Shown here: positions 3,153 through 29,681 of the stretch, piece by piece
Layout of the letters: every line of letters starts with the position of its first letter
Numbering within the stretch: position 1 is the first letter of the stretch
From: Clostridia bacterium
GTDB lineage: Bacteria > Bacillota > Clostridia > Christensenellales > UBA1242
DNA: 41,191 bases
Direction: 5' to 3'
NCBI GenBank assembly: GCA_028708805.1
Contig: JAQVYC010000009.1
Coordinates: forward strand, 1 to 41,191
Translations under genes and position numbers: made by a program
The notes under the pieces: generated by a model
Database searches by the model: none
Seen by the model: only the letters and a program-made list of their open reading frames with translations
What the model was told of the DNA's origin: nothing

Positions 3153-3537
3153 TATTTTTCTCCTCCAATTTATTTTCTTTATTTTTAATAAAAGCACGAT
3201 TTTGTGCTGAAAAACCTAGTAGGTATAAAGGTGATAGCGGTTTGTTACTTTCATAATCACCATCTTGAAACAACTCCATAATTTCATCAATTATATTTCG
3301 AAAATAAGTTGCTCCTTTTAAATAAGTTATGTATGGCAGAAGTTGACTCCATAAATTACCCCAAGTTTGATGAGGTTTTACTTGAAAACTGCTCATAAGC
3401 TTAATTGCATTTGTAACTCTTTTCTGCCCTTCACTCAAATTTTGCTTATAAAGAGCATAAGATTCTAATCTATCGGCTACGGAAAGCAGCCTTCCAAATA
3501 GATAATCTCTATCGGTTTTTGTTTTTTCTAATTCCAT
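3139..3537 (-). CDS. cas11c: Putative internally initiated Cas11c small subunit (in frame within cas8c)
   Basis: In-frame ATG at 3537 preceded by GGAGG (3550-3546) with 8-nt spacing; encodes the 132-aa C-terminal part of Cas8c. Confidence 0.75.
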   Translation of the reverse strand: MELEKTKTDRDYLFGRLLSVADRLESYALYKQNLSEGQKRVTNAIKLMSSFQVKPHQTWGNLWSQLLPYITYLKGATYFRNIIDEIMELFQDGDYESNKPLSPLYLLGFSAQNRAFIKNKENKLEEKNNDIK

Positions 3538-5908: not shown

Positions 5909-8281
5909 CTATTTAATTAAATCTTCACTGTTTGCTTCTTCTGTGTAACCATACATATCAGAATAATAATAAGAAGCAAGTAATTTAACTCCAAACTCTT
6001 CATCTATTTCCGTTATTGCTCCTTGCTCTAAGAGTTTTTCATATTCATATGAATACAAAGAAACACTATATTTTTGCAATTCTTGTAAGATTGCAATTTT
6101 ATTTTTTAAGTCTGAGCTTTTATAATCTGCAAGTAATTTTTCAGTATTGCCATAATAAACAACTACCGCAGTTGTATTATTATCTATAACTTTAAATTTC
6201 TCGCTCGCCAAAGTAAATGCCTGACTGATAAAATGCGAATAGGTTTTATTAGTTCTGTTTTTATAATTATTAATACTTGAAAGATTATCTGAGAGCATTG
6301 AATAAATTGAATTTTGTATGTTTCCAGAAATCATTATTGGATAATCCATTTGAGTTTGTTTTTCAAAAAAGTAATATTTATAATATTGGTTTAATATTTC
6401 TTGACTTAAATAATCCGCTTCTTTGTTTTCATTAAGTATTCTCGCCGTAATTGTTTTTCCTGATTGAATATCAATTAATTTATCTAAATTTTCATTTTTT
6501 AAAGGAACCACATAAACATTTTTTTCGGTTGTTCCATCTCCGTTTCTATTACACCTTCCCGCTGACTGCACAATAGAATCTAAACCTGCCATTGCTCTAA
6601 TTACACAATCAAAAGAAATATCCACCCCAGCTTCAATAAGCTGCGTGCTTACACAAATTATTTTCTTGTTTTTATCTAATGAGCTTTTTATATCTTCAAG
6701 CGTTTTTATTCTATGTGTCGCACACATTGAAGTGCTTAAATGTGATAATTCTAAAATTCCGCTTTTGTTTTTTTCTTTTAATAATTCACATACTTGCCTT
6801 GCCTCACTCTTTTTATTTACAATAACTAAACAGTTATTATTACTTAAAACCTTTTCCCAAACAAATTGAGAAAATTCATCTATACTCATTTGTTTCTCTG
6901 CAATAATTTTTGTTCTCTTTAAATCTGTAAATTCTTTTTCAAAGTTTTCAATTAAGTTAGGCTCAGGAGATAATAATAAATTTTTCTTTTTTGTTTGACT
7001 AAGAAGAGGTTGGGTGGCCGAGCATAATAAGATTGTTGCATTCATTATTTTAGATAAAAAACTAACAACTTCATTAAACAAATGAATAGTTTTGATAGGC
7101 AAAGATTGAATTTCATCAAAAATAATTACACTGTTACTCATACTATGAAATTTTCTAAGATTACTTGCTTTCGAAGACATAACAGTTTCTAAAAATTGCA
7201 CCATTGTTGTTATAATGATGGGGTTATCCCAACGAGAATCAGCCAACTTTTTAAGATTCTTCCCTTCATCATCATTAGGAATAACAATGTTTGAATGATG
7301 TTCAAGAATTATATCGCTGTTTGGTTCTAGTTCAAGAATGTTTCGAATATTCTTTGCTGTTTGTTCAATAATTGAAAGATAAGGAATTACATAAATAATT
7401 CTTTTCTTATGATGATGTAAGGCAAATCTTAACGAAGATAAAGTTTTCCCTCCGCCTGTTGGAACTGATAATAAATATATCCCTGTATTTCTTTTTGCTG
7501 CATTTTTACATTTTTCAGATATCAATGAACGAATTTTTGAAATTTTGTTATTAATATTAAATTTTCCAATATTTTTTTCAAAAGTTTCAATTAGATTGCT
7601 CCAATTAAATATTTTTTGACTTGATTTTATATCTTCTTGAATATCAAAAAAATATGCATCTAATCTATCTGCATCAATCAAACAAGAATAGATATATTTA
7701 ATTAAAAGCCCAAGTGCAAATTTTTTAGATGCATATGATTTATATGTTTTACCTATATGGTTAATTATCTCAGACATCTCTTTTTGTGCATTTATAAAAA
7801 GCCTATCAAGTTCTGTTTTATCTAAAATCAACTTTGAATTATTTTTTATATTTAAATAGTCATATTCCGAATTTATCGCCAAGTTTAATTTATCAAAAAA
7901 AATTTTATCACTATCAGGACTAATAAGGTCGCTTAAACTTCCATGATGTCCTGAAATTACAATTTCAAGTATTTCTTTAATAAGACTTGCTAACTGATTT
8001 TTCGAATCAAAAATATCATTAACTAAAAAAGCACCCTGAATAGAATGTTTAACCGTACCTCTTTTTTTATCGCCATTATTTAAGTAAGTTTGAAATTCAT
8101 AGGATGCTTTTCCAATATCATGCAAAGAGCCTGCAAGACTTATTAAATTTGGAGCAATTGAAGCAAAACCACTAGCCATTTTGGAAACATTTTGCAAATG
8201 TACATTTAGTTGCTGAAAATTGCCCTTTTCATCTTTTCGAGCTTTAAAGTAAGTATTCCTTTTATCTTTTGCAAACCTCAT
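5909..8281 (-). CDS. cas3: CRISPR-associated helicase/nuclease Cas3 (HD + SF2 helicase)
   Basis: 790 aa; HD motif ‘SLHDIGKASYEFQ’, GHHGSL, Walker A SVPTGGGKT, DEIQ box, STQLIEAGVDISF and GRCNRNG motifs. Confidence 0.96.
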   Translation of the reverse strand: MRFAKDKRNTYFKARKDEKGNFQQLNVHLQNVSKMASGFASIAPNLISLAGSLHDIGKASYEFQTYLNNGDKKRGTVKHSIQGAFLVNDIFDSKNQLASLIKEILEIVISGHHGSLSDLISPDSDKIFFDKLNLAINSEYDYLNIKNNSKLILDKTELDRLFINAQKEMSEIINHIGKTYKSYASKKFALGLLIKYIYSCLIDADRLDAYFFDIQEDIKSSQKIFNWSNLIETFEKNIGKFNINNKISKIRSLISEKCKNAAKRNTGIYLLSVPTGGGKTLSSLRFALHHHKKRIIYVIPYLSIIEQTAKNIRNILELEPNSDIILEHHSNIVIPNDDEGKNLKKLADSRWDNPIIITTMVQFLETVMSSKASNLRKFHSMSNSVIIFDEIQSLPIKTIHLFNEVVSFLSKIMNATILLCSATQPLLSQTKKKNLLLSPEPNLIENFEKEFTDLKRTKIIAEKQMSIDEFSQFVWEKVLSNNNCLVIVNKKSEARQVCELLKEKNKSGILELSHLSTSMCATHRIKTLEDIKSSLDKNKKIICVSTQLIEAGVDISFDCVIRAMAGLDSIVQSAGRCNRNGDGTTEKNVYVVPLKNENLDKLIDIQSGKTITARILNENKEADYLSQEILNQYYKYYFFEKQTQMDYPIMISGNIQNSIYSMLSDNLSSINNYKNRTNKTYSHFISQAFTLASEKFKVIDNNTTAVVVYYGNTEKLLADYKSSDLKNKIAILQELQKYSVSLYSYEYEKLLEQGAITEIDEEFGVKLLASYYYSDMYGYTEEANSEDLIK

Positions 8282-8882: not shown

Positions 8883-9731
<849 letters not shown>

Positions 9732-11689: not shown

Positions 11690-12454
<765 letters not shown>

Positions 12455-24661: not shown

Positions 24662-25267
24662 ATGGAAGATATAAAATTAATTGTTGCGAATAATATTATC
24701 AAGTACAGAAAAAAGTTTAAGCTTACGCAAGCGGAACTAGCAGAAAAATTAAATTATTCAGATAAATCTATATCAAAATGGGAACGAGGTGATTCACTCC
24801 CAGATATTATTATTTTAAATGATATCGCAAAAATTTTTAATATATCCTTAGATAATTTAATTACGCAACACGAAGTGAAACCTTATAAAAGGGCGAATAA
24901 ACTTCTCGAAAAAATATACAACAATAAAATGCTAATAACTTTGTGTTCAAGCATTATTGTATGGTTAATTGCTTCAATCGCTTTTGTATTTTTAAGCATA
25001 TTTACAGACATTTCTTATTTATGGGTGATTTTTGTTTATGCGTCTACGGTAAATTGTATTGTTTTAATTGCACTTAATTATTTATGGAAAAATATTTATT
25101 ACAATTTTGCGACCGTGGCTTCTCTTATAATATCACTGGCAATAAGTATTTATTTTTCGTTATATTTGTTCTTAGATATAAACAGAATATGGTTGATTTT
25201 TATTATTTTAATTCCGCTTTTAATTCTTGCTTATCTATGGTTCATTGTTAGAAAAAAATTTAAATAA
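24662..25267 (+). CDS. XRE-family HTH regulator with C-terminal transmembrane domain
   Basis: NIIKYRKKFKLTQAELAEKLNYSDKSISKWERGDSLPDI HTH followed by several TM segments. Confidence 0.92.
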   Translation: MEDIKLIVANNIIKYRKKFKLTQAELAEKLNYSDKSISKWERGDSLPDIIILNDIAKIFNISLDNLITQHEVKPYKRANKLLEKIYNNKMLITLCSSIIVWLIASIAFVFLSIFTDISYLWVIFVYASTVNCIVLIALNYLWKNIYYNFATVASLIISLAISIYFSLYLFLDINRIWLIFIILIPLLILAYLWFIVRKKFK

Positions 25268-25322
25268 CACTTTACTTGATTTTTTTCTTGAGTTTGATTA
25301 TATTAGTGTTAAAGGGGTAAAA

Positions 25323-26054
25323 ATGGAAATTGCAAGTTTAGGTTCAGAAGGCAAAAAGAAATATGATATTATAACTAGTAGAGCCGAGAAAAAGATTTTA
25401 TCTGAGGCTCGCTATCTAAACATTGATGAATTTAATTATGAAGGCAAATATAAATATAAAACTATATATTATGATACACCTGAAAAGCTGTTGACCAATG
25501 CCGGAATTTTACTTTATAAAACTTGGATTAAAGATAGTTATTATTTTGTAATTCAACGATTGAATATTTTACCCAGCACATCAAAGTTAAAAAGAAACGA
25601 AATTTATAGACATGCAGTTGATGCTCAGGATTCGCCGATAAAACATACTTTTTATTTAATCAATGGTATTACATCAATGTTTTCGACCCAATTTTCTATT
25701 GATTTAGAATATGTTATTAAAAATGTAAAACCTATAATTATTATAAATATTAAGGCTGTTAGTTATAAAATTTTTAGTGGCACAGGCTTTAAATGTTTAC
25801 TTACTTTTGAAAACGCAGTTTATTTTAATAAAGTAACAAGGAAAAAACGAGTGAATAAGGAATTGAATGTTGAACTTTTGGCTCCTAAAAATTTTTTATC
25901 TGAATTTGATAAGTTTACTTTACTTCTAGAAAAATATTGTAAAGATATCATCCCTAAAAAAGAATCTAGATTTGCTTATGCTAATAGAATTACGGGGATT
26001 ATCAAGAATAAAACAAATGGTAAAGTAAAAAAAGTAGACCAGAAAAAAATTTAA
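25323..26054 (+). CDS. Divergent CYTH/VTC-like (triphosphate tunnel) domain protein
   Basis: SRAEKKIL…KYKTIYYDTPEKLLTNAGILLYKTW…FVIQRLNI…RNEIYRH pattern; start at 25323 is preceded by AAAGGGG. Confidence 0.55.
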   Translation: MEIASLGSEGKKKYDIITSRAEKKILSEARYLNIDEFNYEGKYKYKTIYYDTPEKLLTNAGILLYKTWIKDSYYFVIQRLNILPSTSKLKRNEIYRHAVDAQDSPIKHTFYLINGITSMFSTQFSIDLEYVIKNVKPIIIINIKAVSYKIFSGTGFKCLLTFENAVYFNKVTRKKRVNKELNVELLAPKNFLSEFDKFTLLLEKYCKDIIPKKESRFAYANRITGIIKNKTNGKVKKVDQKKI

Positions 26055-26117
26055 TTTCTATTTATACAGCATTTGTTTAGTTTGATTTTAAAAATTTGAT
26101 TTATTTAAGAAGATAGT

Positions 26118-26201
26118 CTGGTGAAATGAAGTTCAAAAAGTGATTTTCGCAAGTGCAAAACACTTGCATTTAGTTGCTTGTAAACTTTAAATTCGCCAGC
26201 C
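26118..26201 (-). repeat. Diverged copy of cloverleaf palindromic element (E2)
   Basis: Reverse complement aligns to 28609-28696 with the same 34-nt spacing from GGCTG to GCAAGTGTTTTxCACTTGC, then AAATCACTTT; outer CTGGTGAA/TTCGCCAG stem kept. Confidence 0.75.
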
Positions 26202-26511
26202 TTTTTATTTTTCTTAGCACATTGGTTTTTCGTCAACTTTTTATCTGCTGTTTTTTAATGATTTATTTTCTATAAACTTTTATTTATGATGTATTTATTT
26301 TTTAAAATGAACCAACTGCACTACTACTCGTAATTTATTATATTTAATATTCTACCAACCTAACTGCTAGTATTTTTTTTCTTTATTTCTTATTTTATTT
26401 TTTTAAGTAACTCATTAACCAAATTAATTACAAAATTTTAAAACAAATGCAATTCATTGTTTTATCTAAAATTTAGTGAATTAGCTATTCTAAAAGATGC
26501 TTTATTTCAAG

Positions 26512-27669
26512 TTAAATTATGTCAACCCTAACTATTTCCCCGTCTTGTGCATCTTGATATGTTATCCAGTATCCTTGACCTTTCGGTTCGGCAACATCAA
26601 TGGGTAGCCACTGAGCTTTTTCATTAAAGTCGACAGGAGGCTTTTCAGTCCAACTTGCAGGAAACCCATAACAAACATATTTCACAACATCTTCGGAATA
26701 AATTAAACCAACAACATAAAACTTGCCTTCCTTTTCATAATCCACTTTCACCCATTTTGAATTAGGAATTATATCGCAAAGCACTTCATCTACGGAATGT
26801 TTATCAAACAATATTTCTAATTGAGAGCTTATTTCATCAAAGAAATAAATACTGTTTTCTAAGGTGGGTTTTCTCATTTTTCCGCTTTTTATATTTTTGA
26901 CAGTGTCATTTACTAAGTCATCTTTTTCTTTGGTTTTCTTTGGTTCTTTCTTTTCTGATTTTTTTTCTTTTTCTTGGACTTCTTCAATTCCCTCAGCGAC
27001 TTCATCGACTACTTCTTCGCCTTCATCGACTACTTCTTCGCCTTCATCATATTTAATATCATCGTAAATGTCTTCATCGCTATCAAAATTTATATGAACA
27101 TTATCTTCGCTGTCTGTTTCGTTGAGGCTTATATCTTCATTTGCTTTATTTCCATTTTTATAAAATGCTGATTTATATGTACAGTTTTCGCATTTCTCAT
27201 TACAACGGAAATAATTATCAACTTCTTTTTCTATATCTTCATCATCATCAAAATAAATAGAGTTTTCTTGTAAAATGTTCCCTGCAATTTTCGGTGAGGT
27301 TTGCTCTAAGGCATTTAATCCCGAAATCAATCTTTCTTCCATATTGGCACCGTTTCCAGAGATTGAGCCTAATAAAAGTGGCTCAGAACTACCGCCCCTT
27401 GAACTAATTAAAGCACATGTGCAATTTTCTGGAATATTATTTAAAATTGACCCAAAAGTGTAAGTCATATATCCAACTCTGGTTAGCCCCGCTTTATGAA
27501 CTTTGCCATCAATTAGCAATCCCAAAGACAATACGCCCATTGGCTCTTCAATAAAATTATATAGCTTTACATCGCCCCTTATTCCGCCTGTTTTACCATC
27601 TAAATTTAGAACTGCTTTTTTTAAGGAATTATCAACCGCACTTAAAACAACAGATTTATTATAAATCAT
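26512..27669 (-). CDS. Uncharacterised two-domain protein with acidic/basic linker
   Basis: 385 aa; conserved-looking N- and C-terminal domains (…WLPIDVAEPKGQGYWITYQDAQDGE) joined by a DEGEEVV/KEK low-complexity linker. Confidence 0.75.
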   Translation of the reverse strand: MIYNKSVVLSAVDNSLKKAVLNLDGKTGGIRGDVKLYNFIEEPMGVLSLGLLIDGKVHKAGLTRVGYMTYTFGSILNNIPENCTCALISSRGGSSEPLLLGSISGNGANMEERLISGLNALEQTSPKIAGNILQENSIYFDDDEDIEKEVDNYFRCNEKCENCTYKSAFYKNGNKANEDISLNETDSEDNVHINFDSDEDIYDDIKYDEGEEVVDEGEEVVDEVAEGIEEVQEKEKKSEKKEPKKTKEKDDLVNDTVKNIKSGKMRKPTLENSIYFFDEISSQLEILFDKHSVDEVLCDIIPNSKWVKVDYEKEGKFYVVGLIYSEDVVKYVCYGFPASWTEKPPVDFNEKAQWLPIDVAEPKGQGYWITYQDAQDGEIVRVDII

Positions 27670-27733: not shown

Positions 27734-28537
27734 TCAAGACTTGTCTAATTGTTGATATAATTGTCGAAGTTGTAAAATATCTAGAACTTCCGCCCGCACT
27801 AACAGAGAAATATTTAGTTTATTAAAGGCTTTTTCAACCTCTAATTTATTATATTTTATATTTATTAAATTGTTGATTAAAGTTTTTCTTTTCATTGCAA
27901 AACAACCTTTAATAAATCTTGTAAAATTTTCGTCATAAATGATATCAGGCTTTCGTTCTAACCTTAAAATCGCAGAATCAACCTTAGGTCGAGGACGAAA
28001 CATTGTTTTTTTCACAATTCTTGTTATTTTGGCATTGCAATAATAACTAATCATTGCACTTAAAAGACCGTAGTTATCCTCGTTTGGTCTTGCTACTATC
28101 TTTTCCGCAACTTCTTTTTGCACCATAATTGTTAATGTTTCAACCTTGTTTGTTTGCTCTAAAAATTTAAAAATAAGGGGTGTTGTTATATAATAAGGAA
28201 GGTTTGCTATTATGTGGAATGAACCTGAAAAGTCGGTTTCTATTTCCTGCATGTGTTTCTTTAAAATGTCTGCCATTATTATCTTGACATTTTTTACAGA
28301 TGAAAACTTTTCTTGTAATATTTCTGTTAGCTTTTTATCTATTTCGTAAGCAACAACATTTTTAGCCTTTTTTGAAATTGCTTGCGTTAAAGTACCAGCC
28401 CCTGCGCCTATTTCTAACACTTCGTCGTTTTCACCAATTCCGCTGTCTGATACTATTGCATTTAAAAGATTAGTATCGGATATAAAATTTTGACCGAATT
28501 TTTTATTGAATTTAATATCTTTGAAACTCATTTTCAC
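27734..28537 (-). CDS. rsmA: 16S rRNA (adenine1518-N6/1519-N6)-dimethyltransferase RsmA/KsgA
   Basis: KKFGQNFISDTNLL, VLEIGAGAGTLT, ANLPYYITTPLIFK, FRPRPKVDSAI motifs. Confidence 0.96.
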   Translation of the reverse strand: MKMSFKDIKFNKKFGQNFISDTNLLNAIVSDSGIGENDEVLEIGAGAGTLTQAISKKAKNVVAYEIDKKLTEILQEKFSSVKNVKIIMADILKKHMQEIETDFSGSFHIIANLPYYITTPLIFKFLEQTNKVETLTIMVQKEVAEKIVARPNEDNYGLLSAMISYYCNAKITRIVKKTMFRPRPKVDSAILRLERKPDIIYDENFTRFIKGCFAMKRKTLINNLINIKYNKLEVEKAFNKLNISLLVRAEVLDILQLRQLYQQLDKS

Positions 28538-28605: not shown

Positions 28606-28702
28606 AAATGGCTGACGGATAAGTTTTGCGTTACAAAACTTTGGCAAGTGTTTTACACTTGCCCGGAAATCACTTTGTGATTTCCGTTCCGTCAGCCCAT
28701 TT
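28606..28702 (+). repeat. Cloverleaf palindromic element (E1): outer stem enclosing three perfect hairpins
   Basis: Outer AAATGGCTGACGGA/TCCGTCAGCCCATTT; hairpins AAGTTTTG-cgtta-CAAAACTT, GGCAAGTGT-ttt-ACACTTGCC, CGGAAATCAC-ttt-GTGATTTCCG. Confidence 0.9.
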
Positions 28703-28715
28703 AATTTTGCCTTTT

Positions 28716-29681
28716 TTATACAATCTCTTTATTTTTATCAGACTTCTTTTCTTTTGCTTCATCACAGCCTGATGCCTTTTTAACCTTTTTAAACTTCCTA
28801 TTAAATGCCAATGACCAAAGCGTCGGGGTTATAAAATAAGAAGAGAAAACACAAGCCAAAACACCTAATATTAAAGATATAGAAGCAAAACCTATGCTGT
28901 TTATCCAAATTGCTAAAATAATAAGTGCTATTATAACAGTTATACCAATTAAAGCACTTCTTTTACATTCATCTTTAATTGAGATATCAACTAATTCTTT
29001 GTTAGTCTTTTTTATAAATTGTTCATTTTTAGCATTCTTGTTGAATGTGTTTAAATTCATAAAACTGAAATATATCGAAAGCACAGCCGTGCTCATAATA
29101 ACAATTCCAAAATATTGATTTATCGGAATTCTTGCAATTAAGGTCAAAGTTGTCATTATGCCCAAATCTAAAAATGCAACTGCAATCATCGTGAAACCAG
29201 AAGTCAAATTATGCCTTGCAAACATATAAATTGCAACTGCTATAATTGATATTAAAACAGCTAAAAATGCTTTTGTAAATACCTCAGCACTAAACTCGGG
29301 TGTTGTATTTGTTTGCATAATTATAAAATTAACTTCCATTGCATCATTTTCATTATATCCAAACTTTTCAAATAAATCATTTTTTACATTTTCATTAACT
29401 GTTTCTACATCTGTAAATATCTGATATTTTATTATAGCACAAATGCCTGTTTCATTTTCACCTATGCTTGCATAACTTGCCTTTAAGTTATTTTTAGATA
29501 AAACTTCATTTATTTTTGCCATAGAATCATCAACTTCAAAATTTGTAGTATTGACTGTAACAACAGTACCACCAGTAAAATCAAAACTCTTATTGAAATT
29601 AATCGTAAAAAGCAATACAAAACCCAATATTAAAACTAAAAGAGATGCTAAACCACTTTTAAAAAATTTAACCAAGTTCAT
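28716..29681 (-). CDS. secF: Protein translocase subunit SecF
   Basis: FNKSFDFTGGTVV, six TM topology, overlaps secD. Confidence 0.93.
   Translation of the reverse strand: MNLVKFFKSGLASLLVLILGFVLLFTINFNKSFDFTGGTVVTVNTTNFEVDDSMAKINEVLSKNNLKASYASIGENETGICAIIKYQIFTDVETVNENVKNDLFEKFGYNENDAMEVNFIIMQTNTTPEFSAEVFTKAFLAVLISIIAVAIYMFARHNLTSGFTMIAVAFLDLGIMTTLTLIARIPINQYFGIVIMSTAVLSIYFSFMNLNTFNKNAKNEQFIKKTNKELVDISIKDECKRSALIGITVIIALIILAIWINSIGFASISLILGVLACVFSSYFITPTLWSLAFNRKFKKVKKASGCDEAKEKKSDKNKEIV

Follow-up and report, generated by a model that had tools for sequence, protein, structure and literature searches.

The data directly support a family of short DNA elements with a fixed cloverleaf architecture and near-wobble-free covariation, as well as its placement at gene 3' ends, its dispersal and its turnover. 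One of these elements, E2, lies in the window, i.e. the whole 41,191-nucleotide stretch of DNA that was analysed, and it appears to be a decaying member of this family of small, non-coding, interspersed repeats defined by shape. Taken together with the mechanism that we propose below, in which a dispersing, shape-conserved DNA palindrome keeps its arms self-complementary by DNA-level copying, this reading has in our judgment somewhat better than an even chance of being correct.

The initial annotation presented E2 as a second, diverged copy of another element, E1, which lies between secF and ksgA (Table 1). The likeness is as described there: the sequences, the 34-nt spacing and the common AAATCACTTT are all in place. 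E1 is intact and reads, on the - strand, GGCTGACGGA-A-CGGAAATCAC AAA GTGATTTCCG-GGCAAGTGT AAA ACACTTGCC-A-AAGTTTTG TAACG CAAAACTT-A-TCCGTCAGCC. It folds 13.4 s.d. better than its shuffles and is separated by 19 nt from secF upstream and by 73 nt from the ksgA ORF downstream. In six congeners, where both genes were seen close together, the gap between them contains no such element, and E1 is therefore specific to its own lineage. The order of E2 on the + strand is AGT-CTGGTGAA-...-GCAAGTGCAAAACACTTGC-...-TTCGCCAG-CCTTTTTATTTTT. Its outer stem CTGGTGAA/TTCGCCAG has been kept with one G-T pair, its central hairpin is still perfect and, as annotated, its flanking hairpins have decayed. In the best fold of E2 the side arms, instead of forming two hairpins, are paired to one another and give a rod, and hence we regard E2 as a degenerate copy. 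Compared with shuffles, its folding has a z-score of -5.2 on the + strand and -3.1 on the - strand. The R1/R2 covariance model matches it at 26111-26208 on the + strand with 60 bits for R2, a score that is not independent because E2 belongs to the R2 training set.

E2 is located between two convergent genes, whose stops precede it by 61 nt (+ gene) and 311 nt (- gene), each in the sense of its own gene. The expression 'its upstream gene' in the initial annotation is thus ambiguous. The 'CYTH-like' label given to the + gene could not be confirmed, with no Pfam match at E<=0.01. The - gene is found downstream of ksgA in every congener where it was seen. Elsewhere in the window, at 8943-9260 and 12042-12400, there are 9-nt tandem repeats resembling collagen-type Gly-X-Y, in two ORFs on opposite strands.

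Table 1. Elements E1 to E4, their helices and the genes next to E1 and E2. Coordinates are those of the window unless a contig is named; helix sequences are given in the sense of the element.
Feature	Coordinates	Strand	Remarks
E2, degenerate three-arm element	26115..26201	+ (sense)	Covariance-model match, BLAST to E1, fold z
E2 outer stem, 5' arm CTGGTGAA	26118..26125	+	Pairs with 26192-26199, one G-T pair
E2 outer stem, 3' arm TTCGCCAG, then CCTTTTTATTTTT	26192..26199	+	Pairs with 26118-26125
E2 central hairpin GCAAGTG-CAAAA-CACTTGC, still perfect	26149..26167	+	Pattern search
275-aa gene upstream of E2	25227..26054	+	ORF; no Pfam match
385-aa convergent gene across E2	26512..27669	-	ORF; no Pfam match
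E1, intact three-arm element between secF and ksgA	28610..28697	- (sense)	Fold z=-13.4
E1 outer stem, 5' arm GGCTGACGGA	28688..28697	-	Partner TCCGTCAGCC at 28610-28619
E1 arm 1, CGGAAATCAC-AAA-GTGATTTCCG	28664..28686	-	
E1 arm 2 (central), GGCAAGTGT-AAA-ACACTTGCC	28643..28663	-	
E1 arm 3, AAGTTTTG-TAACG-CAAAACTT	28621..28641	-	
ksgA, rRNA adenine dimethylase, downstream of E1	27734..28537	-	PF00398, E=3.5e-64
secF, upstream of E1	28716..29681	-	PF02355
E3	G000:C22:16963-17043		Structure scan
E4	G000:C27, about 5920-6028		Structure scan

Searches by sequence find little beyond these two copies. The pattern GCAAGTG-N-CACTTGC occurs twice in the window, where shuffling predicts 0 occurrences, and in the whole 926-kb (0.93-Mb) genome it is found at the E1 and E2 sites only. 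The sole match of E1 in a BLAST search of the same genome is E2 (86% over 35 nt, E=1.4e-5), and a covariance model built from the two copies and run with filters returned only E1 and E2. In 99 relatives, plasmids and phages, BLAST found no match to E1 outside its own genome; sequence search is therefore the wrong tool for this family. The exact pattern of the stretch common to E1 and E2 was absent from viral contigs.

Scanning the genome for closed multi-arm folds and local folding energy added two more cloverleafs, E3 and E4. Among the 120-nt stretches of the genome, E4, E1 and E3 rank first, second and fourth in stability, ahead of every tRNA, and E1 and E3 lead the ranking by energy density. 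The initial annotation had proposed a genome-wide search with a model of E1 and E2, and when run unfiltered this two-copy model, blind to E3 and E4, does detect them at E=1.9e-8 and 9.7e-6, respectively. A candidate at C3:345 folds into another multi-arm shape and was left out of the count. It is extremely improbable that E1 and E2 arose by chance as unrelated hairpins or through an error of assembly: their identity amounts to just 86% over 35 nt, as such an origin would have it, but the shuffle expectation of 0, the fold z-scores and the presence of the same architecture in many independent MAGs all contradict it.

Every good copy consists of one closing stem and exactly three hairpins. The elements are about 80-120 nt long, with three perfect hairpins that have arms of 6-20 bp and loops of 3-6 nt. 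The outer stem is 8-15 bp long in all and often reads GCCGGCGRAAG/CTTYCGCCGGC or variants ending in GGAAG[CT]. Since the junction linkers measure 0-2 nt in most copies, a single strand folds into a four-way junction with almost no gaps. AT-rich sequence is common in one of the arms (AAATTTTGC) and the middle arm often starts with GCAA, and the other sequence is wholly different between copies.

The family is most abundant in a congener, G002, which is probably the MAG Clostridia bacterium STD2_135. Ten elements were found in its first 204 kb and at least 32 in 614 kb, always with exactly three arms and with a clear gap to all other folds. Further copies are present in G007, in other genera of the family (G019, G099, G116, G117, G129 and G154, with one to three copies each) and, as one copy, in another family of the order (G097), whereas G001 and G005 yielded none. 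These surveys of the family and the order with covariance models scored 16-113 of about 1000 candidates per genome, and absence from them is weak evidence because so few candidates were scored. The proposal of an interspersed family is thus borne out, and the family, which has four copies in the original genome, becomes visible only by structure. An R2 match in G040 (L146) had no cloverleaf fold and was discarded. The outer-stem pattern GCCGGCGRAA..TTYCGCCGGC occurs at 24 viral loci and at least 80 genome loci; among the matches listed, all except the two in STD2_135 were GC-rich chance matches without three arms. A cloverleaf-like fold of three hairpins with the outer stem ATGCGAAAGC/GCTTTCGCAT in L041 (G006:C69, about 3165-3260) was unmatched by the covariance model in the family survey; it represents another multi-arm shape and is uncounted.

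Several other structured repeats were observed in the same genomes. At about 890-1020 of L126 (G002:C8), two CGCCGGCG boxes enclose a further element, which has very long arms and reaches -80 kcal/mol per 120 nt; it is excluded from the 32 elements counted in G002. Minisatellite-like tandem repeats (GTCGAACGGACAA.., GTCCGGTTGACAGTTAAAAC..) adjoin some of the G002 elements (e.g. in L185 before 7283, in L203 after 6254, and in L119 and L131). The congener G005, which has no cloverleaf matches, contains a different hairpin repeat: variable perfect hairpin arrays with a constant TCATCA(T/C) spacer in L040 (G005:C14:28000-38782), at about 2386-2500 and 5986-6105.

The arms vary in concert. In a model-fitted alignment of 44 elements (85 rows, mostly both strands), which for that reason leans towards structure, 95.7% of the cells pair, compared with 52% after shuffling and 37-48% after sliding, all 40 of the 40 model pairs change on both sides, and the covariation score is 1.01 versus 0.21. 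The bias of the alignment is real, but the margin is very large. In comparisons of elements with 60% identity or more, 889 base-pair differences involve both bases and 50 a single one (95% double); E4 and its homolog in G007 differ by three single changes beside three double ones. The arm pairs comprise 1212 Watson-Crick and 5 G-T pairs, a ratio that exaggerates the lack of wobble, as perfect pairing was among the grounds for picking the structure candidates and Watson-Crick pairs are favoured by this choice; the covariance-model matches from other genera and their double changes reduce this bias but do not remove it. Counting A-C gives 8 mismatches, and with 5 G-T against 8 A-C there is therefore no strand bias. 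The same A-C versus G-T counts in simple terminator-like hairpins gave no discrimination. Helices selected as RNA normally pass through G-U pairs and tolerate them. Double changes almost without wobble are better explained by DNA-level copying of one side of a palindrome from the other, and the near-absence of G-U hence points to DNA-level rather than RNA-level maintenance.

The location of the elements could nonetheless suggest a role in the transcript. After removal of the spurious small ORFs lying over elements, 29 elements of G002 could be placed: 17 are in codirectional gaps, 12 in convergent gaps (p=0.005) and none in a divergent gap (p=0.0016), which upholds the annotated preference for gene 3' ends. 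Within the first 6 nt going outward on both sides, T accounts for 49% and A for 28%, and the two level by about 18 nt with no strict T run, a composition that is a weak fit to two-way termination and to the terminator role suggested in the initial annotation. E1 and E3 lie close to stops (19 nt and 22-28 nt after them, respectively), and the gap between the spoIIR-like and LysM genes contains an element both in the original genome and in G002. All this would be expected of functional RNAs at mRNA 3' ends, acting as bidirectional intrinsic terminators or 3'-end protectors and selected on the transcript. We regard such a role as rather unlikely because, in addition to the rarity of G-U pairs and of single-step changes, over 100 nt separate many G002 copies from the nearest stop, most orthologous gaps lack the element, and ordinary terminator-like hairpins are no rarer where an element is present (10/29 gaps versus 50/330). 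The elements share with intrinsic terminators a stable inverted repeat, modestly T-rich outward flanks and gene 3' ends, but they differ in having four helices where a terminator has one, in lacking G-U and a strict T run, and in occupying a minority of gaps. They match no tRNA or other RNA family in Rfam. The same orientation relative to the upstream gene, which had been suggested from E1 and E2, is not a property of the family: of the codirectional G002 copies, 7 have the AT-rich arm first in the sense direction and 9 have it last, and the element itself is almost a palindrome.

The copies are not fixed in place. Of 16 orthologous gaps that hold an element in G002 and whose genes are also neighbours in the original genome, one carries an element in both. 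This is the spoIIR-like/LysM gap, occupied by E3 in the original genome (G000), and the sequence of E3 differs from that of the G002 copy. The G007 homolog of E4 (79% over 167 nt) is found not at the E4 locus but 3' of tuf, between tuf and an hflX-like gene, a site at which none of the four copies of the original genome is located. With sites moved and only 1 of 16 gaps in common, copies therefore disperse and are lost.

Such dispersal, the existence of subfamilies and a GC-rich stem resembling a terminal inverted repeat (8-15 bp in all) and common to many copies would also be seen in a classical MITE, i.e. a deleted DNA transposon whose outer stem serves as the terminal inverted repeat and whose DDE transposase comes from elsewhere. 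This origin is distinctly unlikely, given that target-site duplications of k=3-6 in 36 elements were not above those of shuffled pairs, that no pair of outer-stem motifs surrounds any gene in 614 kb of G002, and that the required third and fourth palindromic arms are foreign to MITEs. The four outer-stem matches of G002 outside the listed elements fall within coding-like DNA or at the end of a contig where a listed copy is repeated.

Hairpins at gene 3' ends in high copy in one genome are likewise characteristic of REP/REPIN-type elements, which are mobilised by a Y1 (RAYT/IS200-type) transposase; REPs have a similar gene-3'-end placement. PF01797 is absent, however, from the element-bearing G000, G002, G007 and G019, and members of the family that possess PF01797 mostly show no element. 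There is also no conserved core of a tetranucleotide plus hairpin, but three arms and a closing stem of variable sequence. An origin of this kind is very improbable and, judging from the sequences at hand, appears largely refuted. The resemblance to REP, BIME and REPIN elements extends to being palindromic, extragenic, at gene 3' ends and in high copy in some genomes. Those are, however, single or paired hairpins of conserved sequence with a Y1 transposase, whereas the cloverleafs have three variable arms and no Y1.

Two other groups of repeats invite comparison. Correia/NEMIS, ERIC, RUP and RPE are non-autonomous palindromic intergenic repeats of about 100 nt (reviewed in PMC2229807). The cloverleaf elements are alike in size, palindromy and intergenic location, but they are recognised by shape and not by sequence, their arms are wholly different, and no target duplication was found. 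The mitochondrial DHE of Allomyces and RHE of sponges are small, interspersed, intergenic hairpin elements; the DHE are dispersed without target duplication, triple-hairpin regions are reported from one sponge, and the RHE have conserved stems and variable loops (PMC2800124). Our copies are also dispersed in intergenic DNA without target duplication. In contrast to DHE and RHE, they are bacterial, their stems vary in concert (889 double versus 50 single changes) and a closing stem gives a fixed four-way junction. The mitochondrial elements are thus the nearest known system in spirit, yet opposite in stem/loop conservation. In the open literature, a scope that most subscription papers fall outside, we found no bacterial family of cloverleaf architecture, and the family, a relative of the known bacterial palindromic repeats, is apparently undescribed, its novelty being provisional.

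The explanation that we favour, a palindrome family maintained by DNA-level copying, would work as follows. Copies spread both inside a genome and from one genome to another and come to rest at gene 3' ends; there they may be tolerated, or be of slight use as structures that serve the 3' ends of genes in both directions. Both halves of an arm would change together, most simply because one half of the palindrome acts as the template for the other during DNA synthesis or repair (self-templated correction), and whole arms may sometimes be exchanged. The DNA would have to pass through a single-stranded or cruciform state and undergo self-templated repair, and some host or element enzyme would spread the copies. 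Against it stand the lack of target-site duplication in the 36 elements, of a clear empty-site pair with sharp junctions and of a spreading enzyme among our findings, and long retention under selection is another possible reading of the common E3 site. A more tentative and rather doubtful proposal is that of a new kind of selfish or structural DNA element for which shape alone matters: a single strand would fold into a Holliday-junction-like four-way structure, its arms could be rewritten freely if they stay self-complementary, and an enzyme would read the geometry of the junction and not its sequence.

Bacterial interspersed repeats are usually found by sequence similarity, by which the cloverleaf family is nearly invisible (two of the four copies in its own genome), whereas it is obvious by folding. 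The family also cautions that perfect covariation is by itself no proof of a functional RNA. If its arms do evolve in concert at the DNA level, they would constitute a natural record of palindrome-templated repair that can be read arm by arm across many copies. Furthermore, if a protein spreads the family by recognising the shape of the junction, the recombination principle behind it would be one so far undescribed in bacterial repeats.
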